Source: an uncultured Lachnospiraceae bacterium
GTDB lineage: Bacteria; Bacillota; Clostridia; Lachnospirales; Lachnospiraceae
Length of the DNA: 34,111 bases
Assembly: GCA_949740385.1 (NCBI GenBank)
Contig: CATJJD010000051.1
Location: 1-34,111, forward strand
Direction: 5' to 3'
Part shown: in pieces, positions 3,301 to 34,111 of the stretch
Numbering within the stretch: position 1 is the first letter of the stretch
How the letters are laid out: the number at the start of each line of letters is the position of its first letter
Made by a program: the position numbers and the translations under genes
The notes under the pieces: generated by a model
Database searches by the model: none
Told to the model about the DNA's origin: nothing
Seen by the model: the letters and a program-made list of their open reading frames with translations, nothing else

Positions 3301-3887
3301 GCGAGAATGTCGTTGACGCGCACCAGGTTCTCCCGTTCGCTCTCAAGCTTCTTAAGAGCCGTGACCTTGCGCTTTTTAAACTTGACAATCCCCGCCGCCT
3401 CGTCAAAGAGCTCTCTGCGCTCCTCCGGCTTCCCGCTCAATATCCGGTCGATCTGACCCTGACCGATGATGGAGTAGCCCTCCTTTCCGATACCGGTGTC
3501 GTAGAAGAGCTCCGACACTTCTTTTAAGCGGCATGTGCTGCCGTTAATAAGGTATTCGCTCTCCCCCGAGCGGTACAGACGCCTGGCCACCACAACCTCC
3601 TCGTAGTCGATGGCCAGCTGATGGTCGGAATTGTCCAGTGTGATGGCAACGTAGGCGTAGCTTAACGGCTTTCGGTTCTCCGTTCCCGCGAAAATGACGT
3701 CCTGCATGGAGGCGCCGCGAAGCTGTCTCACCGACTGCTCCCCCAGCACCCAGCGGACAGCGTCCGACACATTGCTCTTTCCGCTGCCGTTTGGGCCGAC
3801 GATGCCGGTGATGCCGTTGTGGAAGTCAAAAACAATCTTGTTTGCGAAGGACTTGAACCCGTGCACCTCAATACTTTTTAAATACAT
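327..3887 (-). CDS. smc: Chromosome segregation protein SMC
   Basis: This 1186-residue protein has the full SMC architecture. A Walker A motif (GPNGSGKS, residues 31-38) lies near the N terminus. Long coiled coils rich in E, K, Q and A follow to about residue 500, then the hinge (about 520-680, including ETALGGSIQNIV), the returning coiled coil, and a C-terminal head with the ABC signature LSGGEKALTAIALL (from residue 1090) and Walker B FCLLDEIEAALDD (about 1114-1126). SMC dimers with ScpA/ScpB condense and segregate the chromosome using ATP. The length is normal for bacterial SMC. The start overlaps the end of rnc by 10 nt, indicating translational coupling, and ftsY follows. Confidence 0.98.
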   Translation of the reverse strand: MYLKSIEVHGFKSFANKIVFDFHNGITGIVGPNGSGKSNVSDAVRWVLGEQSVRQLRGASMQDVIFAGTENRKPLSYAYVAITLDNSDHQLAIDYEEVVVARRLYRSGESEYLINGSTCRLKEVSELFYDTGIGKEGYSIIGQGQIDRILSGKPEERRELFDEAAGIVKFKKRKVTALKKLESERENLVRVNDILAELERQVGPLERQAEKARTYLKKKNELKEYDVNMFLLEEKRIAAELREAREKYGIADAQLQETNAYYDKIREEYDQLGTGLEAMEERITGLRENIGNTSLVQEKLESQISLLTEQIHTAEMTEEHLKSRLAAIEKEKAERKKARGEYAQKKEASDEQLQQALSDQQAAKEELAAVQEKIAACSKAVSGGQKELVELLNKKAQIQSKRQRSDTMLEQIHIRKAELARRILDRKTQEADLNAVLGQYETKRKELEAEVLEVKKEEQALAEKESSWRGKAKENSRLLEEQKAQYLRQQSRLESLKNIAERYDGYGNSIRRVMEQKGNNPGLLGVVSDLIQVEKKYETAIETALGGSIQNIVTEDEQTAKRMIAFLKEKRFGRATFLPLTSIRARSNPKNDAAAAEPGVIGVANRLVRCDRKYEEVAAYLLGRVLVVDTIDHATALARKHNYSLNIVTLEGEHLSPGGSMTGGAFKNSSNLLARNREIEELEGKLSKLKEELSELENRRQDVATALELTADELSSVRETLQQKRLLLNTAQMNEEQARQQRNESEAAFADLMMENAQMEDQIAEISGEKAAILEESERTERREAEISEESKALTEMLAEQTKLESAANDRLSGIVLELANIRQNAAFVQENMDRIDGELAKFDGEARELLENARRSKEDVKQKAEDIEAIRQTILASSESHGRLEQELKENLEKKEKMSEDYRGFFQKQEETARRQADLEKEIYRLNSVQEKLKGESESQTNYLWEEYELTPHAAAELSNEDYGDAGALKKLIARIRDDIRKLGDVNVNAIEEYREVSERYGFLKGQHDDLVEAEQTLVGIIDDLDTGMRTQFAEKFAEIQKEFDGTFKQLFGGGHGTLELVEDEDILECGIRIIAQPPGKKLQNMMQLSGGEKALTAIALLFAIQALKPSPFCLLDEIEAALDDSNVTRFAKYLSRLTKNTQFIVITHRRGTMAAADRLYGITMQEKGISTLVSVNLIEDDLDA

Positions 3888-4986: not shown

Positions 4987-6024
4987 TCACAGGTCCGCAG
5001 TCTGCGGTTCTTCTCCGCCCGCGCCGATAATTCTCTCACGAATGATTCCGTTTATATCATTCTCATGAAAGGTTACGCACTGGTAGATCGAGTTGGTGAT
5101 CTCCTTTGCTTTGGAGCTGCCGTGGGTCTTGACCGCCAGACCGTTGAGTCCCAGCAGCGGCGCACCGCCGTACTCCGTGGCGTCAAATGCCTTAAGCGTC
5201 TTTTTCATGGCCGGCAGCGCAAGCGCCGCTCCCACCTTGCTTCTGACCGTGCTCATCAGCCCCTGTCTGATCGCAGAGACCAGGGTGGCGCTCAGCCCTT
5301 CATACAGCTTTAAAATGACATTGCCCACGAAAGCCTCGCACACAATGACATCCGCACTCCCTCCTGGAATCTCCCGCGCCTCGATGCTTCCGACAAAATG
5401 AATATCCGTGCATGCCCGAAGCAGCGGAAAGGTTTCCTTCACCAAAGCGTTCCCCTTCTCCTCCTCCGCGCCGATATTGACGATGGCGACACGGGGATTT
5501 TTCACTCCGACAACCTTTTCCATGTAAATCGCGCCCATCCTGGCGAACTGGACCAGATGCTCCGGTCTTGCGTCCACGTTGGCCCCGCAGTCGATCAGCA
5601 ACGATACCCCCGACGCAGTCGGGATTAACGGCGCAAGGGGCGGTCTTTTAATCCCACGGATTCGACCGATGATGGTCTGTCCGCCCACAAGCACAGCTCC
5701 GGAGCTCCCCGCGGTGACAAACGCGTCCGCCTCCTTCTGCTTTACCAGATTCATGCCAACTACCATAGACGACTGCTTTTTCTTCCGGATTGCCATAACC
5801 GGCGGCTCCGCCATCTCGATAACCTCCGGCGCGTCCACAATCCCGATTCTTTCTTTCGGGTACGAATGCCGCGAAAGCTCGCCTCTCACGACATCCTCCT
5901 TTCCCACGAGCAATACCTTGATATCCTCCCGGGAGGAAACCGCATCCACAGCGCCCTTTACGATCTCGGCCGGCGCGTTGTCACCGCCCATCGCATCCAG
6001 AGCCACTACTGTAATTGTCTGCAT
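4987..6024 (-). CDS. plsX: Phosphate acyltransferase PlsX
   Basis: The 345-residue protein converts acyl-ACP to acyl-phosphate, the acyl donor for PlsY in phospholipid synthesis. The N terminus [18 protein letters not shown] is the family signature, and the conserved [15 protein letters not shown] and [10 protein letters not shown] segments follow. The start at 6024 is chosen because AAGGAGGA lies just upstream; the longer ORF-track start at 6045 would place that ribosome-binding site inside the gene. It is the first gene of the plsX-acpP-rnc-smc-ftsY unit and has its own promoter downstream of the rpmF terminator. No fapR gene is next to it. Confidence 0.97.
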
Positions 6025-27906: not shown

Positions 27907-29916
27907 TCATCCCCGCGGCACATTGCCGCGGCTTTTGTTCCGATACTGGATCGGCGTCATGTCAAACACCTTCCGAAACGTACGGTTGAAATGCTCCACA
28001 TTCTGATACCCCACCGCGTAGGATATGTTTTCCACGGTCATATTGCCGTTTTTCAGCAGCGTTTTTGCCCGTTTCATGCGGATATTTGTCACATGATCCC
28101 CAAATGTTTTGCCCGACTTATCCTTGATAAATCTGGATATGTACGGCTCCGACAGGTGGAACTGCTCCGCCATCGCCTCAAGCGTCACATCCTGATAGTT
28201 GTTCTGGATAAAGTTGAGCATGGCCGTCAGCCGCTCGTCGGTGCTGCCCTCGCTTCCCGCAATCTGCGGCAGCTTGTTGACCGCCACAACCAGCGCGCTT
28301 ATACTGGCTGTAATAATGTCCTCGTCCAGTCCGACGCCCCAGTAATTTTTCCCGTCGCAGGTGATGCCCACATAGGCGATGGCCTTCGAGGACGATCCCT
28401 GGGAAAGGGCGTGCTCCTCGTACACCGACAGCTCGTAGCTCACGTCAAAAAACTGCTTGATCGTGTTGCTCACCGCGTCCAGGCGGCCGTTGCCGTTTGC
28501 GTCCACCACCGTGCGCTTTCCGCCGAAGTCGATGGTTGTCTCCGCCATAATACCGTCGTTCTGCTTAAAATGGCACTCCGAAATGGTAAAGTACGGCATC
28601 GGGTTCACATAATTTTCTTCGAAAATCTCATACACCCACTGCGGCGACAGCTCTCTGTGCTCCTCGTCGGACACCTGCTTCACCGCGTAGCCGACCTCCT
28701 CCCGCATTTTCTCCGGCATGGAGATCGAGAAGTTCTGCTTTAAAATGTAGCTGATGCCGCCCTTGCCGGACTGGCTGTTGATGCGGATCACGTCGGCGTC
28801 GTAACGGCGGCCCACATCCAGCGGGTCGATCGGCAGATACGGAACCGTCCACTTTGCAAGGTCCTTCTCCTCCCGCCATGCCATCCCCTTTGCGATGGCG
28901 TCCTGGTGGGAGCCGGAAAATGCGGAGAACACCAGATCTCCCGCATAGGGCGACCTCTCCCCCACCTGCATGCGGGTCAGCCGCTCGTAAGTCTCGCGGA
29001 TGCGCGGCATGTCGGAAAAATCAAGCCCCGAATCCACGCCGTAGGCGAACATGTTCATCGCAAGCGTCACAATGTCCACGTTGCCGGTGCGCTCCCCGTT
29101 GCCGAAGAGCGTCCCCTCAATGCGGTCCGCCCCCGCCAGAATTCCAAGCTCCGCGTCGCAGACGCCGCAGCCCCTGTCGTTGTGGGGATGAAGGCTCAAA
29201 ACCACGTTGTCCCGGTACTTAAGATTCTTGCTCATATACTCGATCTGGGTCGCAAACACATGGGGCATGGCCGTCTCAACCGTCGCCGGAAGGTTGATGA
29301 TCACCTTTTTCTCCCCTTTTGGTTTCCACACGTCCAGCACCGCGTTGCAGACCTCAAGGGCGTACTCCACCTCTGTCCCGTGGAAGCTCTCCGGGCTGTA
29401 CTCGAAGGAGAAATCCCCTTCCGTCTCGTCGGCCAGAGTCTTAAGCAGCACGGCGCCGTCCACCGCAAGCTGTTTAATCTGCTGCTTATCCTTCCGGAAC
29501 ACCTGCTCCCGCTGGGCCACCGATGTGGAATTGTACAGGTGGATCACCGCGTGGGGCGCACCCTTCACCGCCTCGAAGGTCTTTCTGATAATGTGCTCTC
29601 TCGCCTGCGTCAGCACCTGCACGGTCACATCGTCCGGAATCATATCCCGCTCGATTAACGTCCGCATGAAAATGAACTCCGTCTCCGACGCCGCCGGAAA
29701 GCCCACCTCGATCTCCTTAAAGCCGATATCCACCAGCATCCGGAAAAACTCCAGCTTCTCGTCGAGACTCATCGGCTCAATCAGCGCCTGGTTGCCGTCC
29801 CGCAGATCCACGGAGCACCAGATCGGCGCATGATCCACATACTCTTTTTTCACCCAGTCATACTCGCACACAGGCGGCATAAAATACTGCCGCTCGTATT
29901 TCTCATAATTCTTCAT
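27907..29916 (-). CDS. leuA: 2-isopropylmalate synthase fused to an AraC-type DNA-binding domain
   Basis: The 669-residue protein starts leucine synthesis by condensing acetyl-CoA with 2-ketoisovalerate. It is type-2 IPMS: the catalytic DRE-TIM barrel has SVDLRDGNQALIEPM (35-49), the metal motif HPHND (243-247) and FGNGERTGNVD (271-281). The LeuA dimer domain, the leucine-feedback site in this family, covers about 440-550 (ELSVYEEHALSQGSSSKA..). The frame then continues into a complete AraC/XylS HTH domain (560-660): one helix-turn-helix around VTLEAMAEQFHLSEPYISRF and a second around VENISYAVGYQNVEHFNRTF. Ordinary IPMS of this type ends near residue 550. There is no stop between the parts. 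The ATG follows GGAGGAG and lies in an inverted repeat. Confidence 0.93.
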   Translation of the reverse strand: MKNYEKYERQYFMPPVCEYDWVKKEYVDHAPIWCSVDLRDGNQALIEPMSLDEKLEFFRMLVDIGFKEIEVGFPAASETEFIFMRTLIERDMIPDDVTVQVLTQAREHIIRKTFEAVKGAPHAVIHLYNSTSVAQREQVFRKDKQQIKQLAVDGAVLLKTLADETEGDFSFEYSPESFHGTEVEYALEVCNAVLDVWKPKGEKKVIINLPATVETAMPHVFATQIEYMSKNLKYRDNVVLSLHPHNDRGCGVCDAELGILAGADRIEGTLFGNGERTGNVDIVTLAMNMFAYGVDSGLDFSDMPRIRETYERLTRMQVGERSPYAGDLVFSAFSGSHQDAIAKGMAWREEKDLAKWTVPYLPIDPLDVGRRYDADVIRINSQSGKGGISYILKQNFSISMPEKMREEVGYAVKQVSDEEHRELSPQWVYEIFEENYVNPMPYFTISECHFKQNDGIMAETTIDFGGKRTVVDANGNGRLDAVSNTIKQFFDVSYELSVYEEHALSQGSSSKAIAYVGITCDGKNYWGVGLDEDIITASISALVVAVNKLPQIAGSEGSTDERLTAMLNFIQNNYQDVTLEAMAEQFHLSEPYISRFIKDKSGKTFGDHVTNIRMKRAKTLLKNGNMTVENISYAVGYQNVEHFNRTFRKVFDMTPIQYRNKSRGNVPRG

Positions 29917-32747: not shown

Positions 32748-33374
32748 CTATCTCTTTTTTGCCGGCACGCCCACGTAGGTTCCGCTCTCCTCAATATCTC
32801 TCACGACCGCCGCCCCGGCCCCGATCATGCAGTCTTCGCAGACGGAAATGTTGTTGCTCACCACCGCCCCCGCTCCGATCCAGGTGCGCCGCCCGGCGCT
32901 CACCGCTCCGGCCAGGTGCGCACCCACCGCCACATGAACATAGTCGCCGATGCTGCAGTCGTGGTCCACGGAGGCGCACGTATTGATAATGCAGCCCTTT
33001 CCGACGCGGCTTCCGGCGTTTACCACAGCCAGCGCCATCACAACCGTGCCGCTTCCTGGCTGTATGTCAGCCGCCAGCACAGCCATCGGGTGCACCAGCG
33101 TCGCGCACACAATTCCGTCCGCCTCCAGCGCCTCCTGCATCCGCTGTCTGATCTGTCCGTTTCCGATGGCGACAATGATGTCGTACCCCCGCTTCGCATA
33201 TGCCGCCGCTTCTTTTGTCCTTCCCGCTACCCGGTATTTTCCGCACTCGTTCAGCGCCTCGTTGTCGTCCAGAAAAACAATCGTCCCATAACCGTTTCGC
33301 TCCGCAATATCCGCCACTACCTTTCCATGTCCGCTGGCACCGATCACCGCCAGCCTTTTTCCTGTCTCAGCCAT
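32748..33374 (-). CDS. NeuD/PglD-family sugar O- or N-acyltransferase
   Basis: A 208-residue protein. Its N-terminal alpha/beta domain has LAVIGASGHGKVVADIA (about 8-24) and IVFLDDN. The left-handed beta-helix of hexapeptide repeats from about residue 95 contains the catalytic-type histidine at 138 in ASVDHDCSIGDY. This is the NeuD/PglD layout; relatives acetylate amino-sugars or sialic acid on cell-surface glycans. The acceptor cannot be told and no glycan gene cluster is visible in this window. The start is the ATG at 33372-33374 behind AAGGAGGA; the upstream ORF-track start is not needed. A 23-bp palindrome lies 79 bp upstream. Confidence 0.87.
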   Translation of the reverse strand: MAETGKRLAVIGASGHGKVVADIAERNGYGTIVFLDDNEALNECGKYRVAGRTKEAAAYAKRGYDIIVAIGNGQIRQRMQEALEADGIVCATLVHPMAVLAADIQPGSGTVVMALAVVNAGSRVGKGCIINTCASVDHDCSIGDYVHVAVGAHLAGAVSAGRRTWIGAGAVVSNNISVCEDCMIGAGAAVVRDIEESGTYVGVPAKKR

Positions 33375-33452: not shown

Positions 33453-33475
33453 TAATAAAGTAACGTACTTTATTA
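33453..33475. repeat. 23-bp palindrome, copy 1
   Basis: TAATAAAGTA, 3 nt (ACG), TACTTTATTA: two perfect 10-nt arms. It is the exact reverse complement of copy 2 at 33838-33860. It lies 79 bp upstream of the NeuD-type gene. Confidence 0.9.
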
Positions 33476-33750
33476 CGGAGGACGCGAAAGCCCCTGTATT
33501 TTCAGGTATTCCCGAAATCTCTGACCAGAATTCTGACGGCGAATAGAATTGTCCGATTCTGCTTTTCGGTCCGGGAACGCCTGATAACACCGGGTTTCGG
33601 CAAATATTTCTGACGGCAAATCTGACGGCGAATAAGAGGAAATGACATTGAAATGGCAGGAAAATGGCTGATTCTGACAAAAACCAGCTCGCGATATGGG
33701 GATCAATAATTGAGAAAAGAGCATTTCTGCGCGGGACATGTAAATTATTA
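33476..33750. other. Non-coding region with direct TCTGAC repeats (possible element end)
   Basis: The span 33375-33992 holds no convincing gene. Within it TCTGAC occurs in the same orientation at 33520, 33532, 33609, 33621 and 33673; three copies extend to TCTGACGGC(G/A)AAT. Two pairs are spaced exactly 12 bp. Repeated short sites next to an ExeA/TniB-type ATPase gene resemble the multiple transposase-binding sites at Tn7- or Tn552-like ends, but no terminus is defined. The overlapping minus-strand ORFs here are judged spurious. Confidence 0.5.
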
Positions 33751-33779
33751 TTGACGCCGGTCGGGATTTGAAGTAGAAT
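33751..33779 (+). promoter_or_regulatory. Promoter for the ExeA-like gene
   Basis: Plus strand TTGACG, a 17-nt spacer and TAGAAT. The transcript would have a leader of about 205 nt that includes palindrome copy 2. Confidence 0.65.
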
Positions 33780-33837
33780 GGGGGCGATTTCGTTCGAGGG
33801 GGCTGTTTTTGGCGGAAGATGGAAGGGGATTTGCGGA

Positions 33838-33860
33838 TAATAAAGTACGTTACTTTATTA
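33838..33860. repeat. 23-bp palindrome, copy 2
   Basis: TAATAAAGTA, 3 nt (CGT), TACTTTATTA. It is inverted relative to copy 1, so each palindrome points the same way toward its own downstream gene (NeuD-type gene to the left, ExeA-like gene to the right). Confidence 0.9.
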
Positions 33861-33992: not shown

Positions 33993-34111
33993 ATGTTCCG
34001 TTCCTACTATGGGCTTTCCTTCAATCCCTTTGACAAACAGAACGCAAGAGAAAAGGACCGGTTCCTGTCAAAGGACATCTCCGAGATGGCGTCCCGCCTG
34101 GACTACTGAAA
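33993..34111 (+). pseudogene. ExeA/TniB-like transposition ATPase, 5' end, with a frameshift; runs off the right edge
   Basis: The start MFRSYYGLSFNPFDKQ followed by DRFLSKDISEMASRLDY is typical of ExeA/TniB-type AAA ATPases encoded with DDE transposases in clostridial mobile elements. A stop (TGA at 34107-34109) follows LDY, where family members usually continue L-K. Restoring one C (TAC CTG AAA) would give exactly that, so a one-base deletion is likely. The start has a G-rich site upstream. The Walker motifs and the partner transposase lie outside the window, so the family call depends on the N terminus only. Confidence 0.6.

Follow-up and report, generated by a model that had tools for sequence, protein, structure and literature searches.

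Invertible promoters are already known from several systems. In Clostridioides difficile, RecV operates switches at flgB, cwpV, cmrRST, pdcB and pdcC (PMC5903667, PMC8890394); the capsule promoters of Bacteroides fragilis are inverted by Mpi, a serine recombinase, according to work cited in PMC5903667; and a fimbrial inverton of Providencia stuartii (14-bp imperfect repeats, 844 bp) encloses the open reading frame of a recombinase (PMC5903667). The PhaseFinderDC catalogue of gut invertons (PMC11892184) describes invertible promoters near surface genes, including those of Clostridia-type Firmicutes_A with inverted-repeat motifs of their own.

The window, by which we mean the whole stretch of 34,111 nucleotides analysed from an uncultured Lachnospiraceae bacterium (contig C51), contains two identical palindromes of 23 bp in opposite orientation, 385 bp apart start to start, and both the positions and the exact reverse complementarity given in the initial annotation are borne out (Table 1). 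That annotation divided each copy into two 10-nt arms around 3 nt; the copies are indeed palindromes, but a division into an 8-bp arm, a 7-bp spacer and an 8-bp arm fits better, because a related element of the same genome (C118) has the spacer CAGTATA. The left-site spacer is the exact reverse complement of the right-site spacer. With a probability of roughly 90%, we interpret the palindromes as crossover sites of a tyrosine-type invertase, bounding a miniature invertible promoter (inverton) that subjects a NeuD/PglD acetyltransferase to ON/OFF phase variation.

Table 1. Features of the proposed inverton in the window, and spacing of the homologous site pairs in the same genome
Feature	Position	Strand	Remarks
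Proposed target: NeuD/PglD-family sugar O-acetyltransferase	32748..33374	-	Pfam PglD_N; TIGR03570 above cut-off
Left recombination site (proposed)	33453..33475	+	TAATAAAGTAACGTACTTTATTA; arm TAATAAAG, spacer TAACGTA, arm CTTTATTA
Proposed invertible segment, 362 bp	33476..33837		homologous to the interiors of four other pairs of this genome (alignment of five elements)
First direct-repeat motif, TCTGACCAGAATTCTGACGGCGAATA	33520..33545	+	proposed arm-type recombinase binding site
Second direct-repeat motif, TCTGACGGCAAATCTGACGGCGAATA	33609..33634	+	89 bp after the first; proposed arm-type site
Sigma-70-type promoter, TTGACG-17-TAGAAT	33751..33779	+	points away from NeuD (OFF); position kept in 5/5 elements
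Right recombination site (proposed), inverted copy	33838..33860	-	TAATAAAGTACGTTACTTTATTA, exact reverse complement; + strand spacer TACGTTA
38-codon start of an ORF at the contig end ('ExeA-like')	33993..34109	+	downstream of the promoter as now oriented; two bases from the contig end
Inverted pairs, start to start			C51 (window) 385 bp; C94 387; C284 429; C335 428; C118 343

Thirteen sites occur in the genome at up to 3 mismatches and none for a reversed control pattern, a number therefore far above chance; a fourteenth site, cut by the start of contig C338, lies directly before a helicase gene. Ten of the thirteen make up five inverted pairs that are complete, with start-to-start distances of 343-429 bp, that is, short inverted repeats around segments of a few hundred bp; the remainder are one lone site (C80) and the sites of C163 and C286, where the end of the contig cuts the element in half. 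The initial annotation was right to argue from the exact identity of the two copies to a shared function, and right to propose a search of the genome for further paired copies, which exist. The lone site (L009:2644-2666), which precedes a truncated helicase gene, is apparently a relic of such a switch. A search of the same genome with the arms alone (TAATAAAG-N7-CTTTATTA) gave no extra site at up to 2 mismatches, and at up to 1 mismatch no site was found in 59 other genomes, 35 of them from the same genus. A scan of further genome contigs with an 18-base pattern returned 39 stretches, none with both a second site at inverton distance and internal repeats, and two scans of viral contigs found one single site in the first and none in the second. 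A rabbit Bacilli MAG (L038) carries two exact TAATAAAGTA-type palindromes (3842-3864 and 5231-5253), 1389 bp apart, whose spacers TATTGTA/TACAATA are reverse complements of each other; this is possibly an unrelated inverton.

The left spacers of the five pairs are TAACGTA, TAAGGTA, TAATGTA, TAAAGTA and CAGTATA; they differ between pairs, and the spacer of the partner site is the exact reverse complement in 5/5 cases. This match is not built in, because the search used the arms only, and zero spacer mismatches arise in only 1 of the 120 possible re-pairings of these sites. One arm position differs in three of the five pairs, with arm mismatches that are not common to both sites. The match of spacers within pairs, their difference between pairs and the unshared arm mismatches therefore indicate site-specific strand exchange rather than an operator, the end of an IS or a hairpin.

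The segments between the sites are organized alike in the five aligned elements. From the gene side, each consists of a site, the TCTGACCAGAATTCTGACGGCGAATA motif, a second copy of the motif about 91 bp on, a promoter and the far site. The promoter, of a near-consensus TTGAC-17-TATAAT type, stands 58 to 130 bp before the far site, so that all five have a promoter inside the segment near one end, directed in every case away from the gene beside the near site (OFF). The window element has no recombinase gene inside. On the proposed mechanism, recombination across the 7-bp spacer would flip the 362-bp segment: the promoter, which in the assembled orientation faces away from NeuD and would leave it OFF, would come to lie about 58 bp inside the left site and to read into NeuD through a leader of about 150 nt (ON). 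The invertase may bind at the internal TCTGAC direct repeats, which would then be arm-type sites like those used by integrase-type recombinases.

The assignment of the proposed target is supported by TIGR03570 (224 bits, against a cut-off of 161), and its start is likely to be the ATG at 33374 rather than 33404, because a ribosome-binding site (AAAGGAGG) precedes the former. Of the two genes that had been described as reading away from the pair, the NeuD-type gene thus holds, whereas the ExeA-like one is not confirmed, the 38-codon fragment being without a Pfam match. Nor does the pair serve two divergent genes equally: its sites enclose one promoter, and where the other copies have a helicase gene, this one has NeuD. 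The gene beside the near site encodes an HA-domain helicase in C118, C335 and C284 and is a short unnamed ORF in C94. No further copies of the right flank of the window were found by search. Elsewhere in the window, an unusual ORF (27907-29916) fuses a complete alpha-isopropylmalate synthase to a C-terminal AraC-type HTH domain.

The helicases carry PF03457 repeats and head polysaccharide operons. A NusG/KOW-domain protein follows the helicase in C305 and C307, with a DegT aminotransferase next in C307; in C200 the genes after it encode a sugar transferase and an epimerase; and in relatives the next gene encodes an EPS polyprenyl glycosylphosphotransferase (TIGR03025 in L115, L116 and L119; Bac_transf in L122). 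The two NusG/KOW-domain proteins (L126:1307-1849, - strand, and L127:1702-2298, - strand) are candidate operon-specific antiterminators like LoaP. The helicases are 51.7% similar to those of the Ruminococcus albus 7 plasmid pRUMAL01, where a helicase pair directly follows nucleotide-sugar genes; this similarity, like the protein content, indicates Clostridia. Counting the present genome, 9 of the 62 from the genus have the helicase at E <= 1e-50.

Homologous loci of congeners have a palindrome pair with a 7-nt spacer upstream of the helicase, 1.35-1.93 kb apart, and between the palindromes lie a tyrosine recombinase gene and a divergent promoter (L115, L116, L118, L121, L123, L124); in L119 and L122 the segment is short and encloses no recombinase. 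A recombinase-centred search adds the pairs of L155, L156, L158, L160, L162, L164, L166 and L168 to L172 as well as C422 of the same genome as the window. For the TTCGCAGAT arm type, which was found with free spacers, the spacers are identical in 11/11 pairs and differ between pairs at a mean of 4.2/7 positions; no mismatch was observed, and 100,000 shuffles never gave fewer than 11. Identity of the crossover sequence at both sites thus holds for this arm type (11/11) as for that of the window (5/5).

The internal promoter is directed toward the gene in L118, L119, L124, L156 and C422, and away from it in L115, L116, L121, L123, L155, L166, L168, L170 and L171. In genome G084, two helicases that are 93% identical (L116, L124) have invertons in opposite orientation relative to them. 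Both orientations are therefore present among homologous loci, the paralogous loci of G084 included, which is comparative evidence that such segments have inverted there, though not that inversion is ongoing in the species of the window. Duplicate loci of sister species (G031/G063) were also compared for an inverted orthologue; in G063 the locus is broken between two contigs. The gene next to an inverton codes for a TnpB-family protein in three genomes of the genus (L156:1563-2897, + strand; L158:2289-3710, - strand; L173:4208-5698, + strand), called by PF07282 and by NF040570 below its cut-off. By eye, the RuvC Glu is missing from these proteins (IVIT[RK]P), as is the third Asp, with LNSAKN where DxNAAxN would be expected, and they may be nuclease-dead and TldR-like.

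The genome encodes eight proteins that match PF00589, two of which (C422, C173) belong to the inverton family. The C173 tyrosine recombinase (L084:3418-4608) is solitary, is not flanked by palindromes, and has both the PF00589 domain and the intact residues R210, K257, H318, R321, H344 and Y354. In a tree it groups with L165, L168, L169, L170, L171 and L172; the sites of those clade members that have a clear pair mostly end in AGAG or AAAG before the spacer, like TAATAAAG (L169 does not), giving site ends of AAAG/AGAG-N7-CTTT/CTCT for the family; and an arm-like motif, TGAC[GT]GCGA, is common to L165, L168 and the window repeats, where the other clade has TGACCA. Its clade, the ends of the sites and the shared motif together make C173 the probable enzyme acting in trans on TAATAAAG-N7-CTTTATTA sites, with an identity of only 35-42% to recombinases whose sites are known. 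The window inverton would be a non-autonomous element, and C173 would probably flip all TAATAAAG-type sites in trans.

It is quite conceivable that the inverton is flipped by another enzyme. One candidate is the recombinase of C422, a member of the same family that lies inside an inverton itself; the arms of its sites, however, are different (TTTCGCAGAT), and the repeats of its clade are of the TGACCA type, not TGAC[GT]GCGA; alternatively, the MAG is 84% complete, and another enzyme may therefore be missing from it. Contig C422 carries an autonomous inverton (L082:998-2524) with TTTCGCAGAT arms, the recombinase inside, and a promoter that faces an aldose 1-epimerase-like gene.

Three functions other than inversion were considered and rejected on the grounds of spacer pairing and the homologous loci. 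Operators of one dimeric regulator, flanking a divergent promoter region, would show the perfect dyad symmetry, the promoter-proximal position and the several copies per genome that are seen here; they are nevertheless very unlikely, as such operators leave unexplained why the central 7 nt are the same within a pair and different between pairs, why copies come as inverted pairs 343-429 bp apart, and why a recombinase lies between the palindromes at homologous loci. We give equally little credence to terminal inverted repeats of a miniature transposable element (MITE-like). The repeats of one such family would share their central bases, yet both ends vary here in step, and the centres of the sites differ from copy to copy where a MITE would have invariant termini; every copy lies immediately before a gene and turns the same side to it; and no transposase is encoded inside. 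These observations outweigh the presence of five homologous copies (366-452 bp) spread over separate loci, the integrase-family enzymes of the genome, and the copies at NeuD and at a second non-helicase gene, which suggest past duplication or mobility. The 30-base flanks of the sites show no obvious direct repeat on inspection. RNA hairpins or terminators in leader RNAs can practically be dismissed: both strands fold better than shuffles (z = -3.85 and -2.94), but this follows from any 10-bp palindrome, neither spacer matching nor a distant inverted partner would be needed, and examination of the sites gave no U-tract terminator. Among the functions proposed in the initial annotation, the boundary of a mobile element came nearest, in that the sites would be substrates of an integrase-family recombinase, albeit for inversion and not transposition; none of the three fits the pair-specific spacers, the internal promoter and repeats, or the homologous loci with a recombinase and the opposite orientation.

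Site-specific inversion is thus the preferred reading, and two observations stand against it: all five complete elements of this genome are in the one OFF orientation in the assembly, and TAATAAAG arms are absent from every other genome tested. From the sequence of the five elements and their relatives we infer that inversion occurs in this species, and we predict binding of the enzyme at the arm-type repeats and control of NeuD. A wider proposal is tentative: one trans-acting integrase-type invertase with arm-type repeats may run miniature invertons throughout the genome, the 7-bp spacers being addresses that promote inversion within loci and impede exchange between them, and may thereby phase-vary several polysaccharide operons led by an HA-domain helicase together with a polysaccharide-modifying acetyltransferase. 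Two incomplete elements reuse spacers, that of C286 being the spacer of C51 and that of C163/C338 the spacer of C284; the addresses are therefore not unique, and the idea is weakened.

In the open-access literature searched, we located neither the combination found here nor any report of a helicase-linked switch, and helicases are absent from the main text of the PhaseFinderDC catalogue (PMC11892184). The nearest solved relative of C173, the Int protein of Tn1549 (PDB 6EMY/6EMZ/6EN0; E = 5e-18 over the catalytic domain), moves a conjugative transposon, whereas the relatives described here bound invertible promoters. As in Providencia, a recombinase gene lies inside the invertible segment in congeners of this genome; unlike the Providencia inverton, these belong to another phylum, and the window element is without a recombinase. 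The family would comprise two forms, autonomous invertons that carry a recombinase and miniature ones that do not. If so, matching spacers within an inverted palindrome pair provide a rule by which switches can be found from an assembly alone, without reads.

The proposed system resembles the RecV switches in its short invertible segments bounded by inverted repeats, in its Clostridia genome, and in that a single tyrosine recombinase would serve several loci in trans. The RecV repeats are of modest similarity and variable length, whereas the sites described here have constant arms and form full palindromes around a 7-nt locus-specific spacer, and the targets, unlike those of RecV, are polysaccharide operons. 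In this last respect the system would resemble that of Mpi as cited in PMC5903667, with several polysaccharide promoters flipped by one trans-acting recombinase; it differs from the serine enzyme Mpi in its tyrosine recombinases and in operons that start with an HA-domain helicase, followed in C305 and C307 by a NusG-like gene. If the proposal is true, the uncultured Clostridia of this genus phase-vary their polysaccharides by a Bacteroides-like strategy that is built from unrelated parts: the recombinases are of the tyrosine type, there are arm-type repeats, and an HA-domain helicase stands at the head of the operons.
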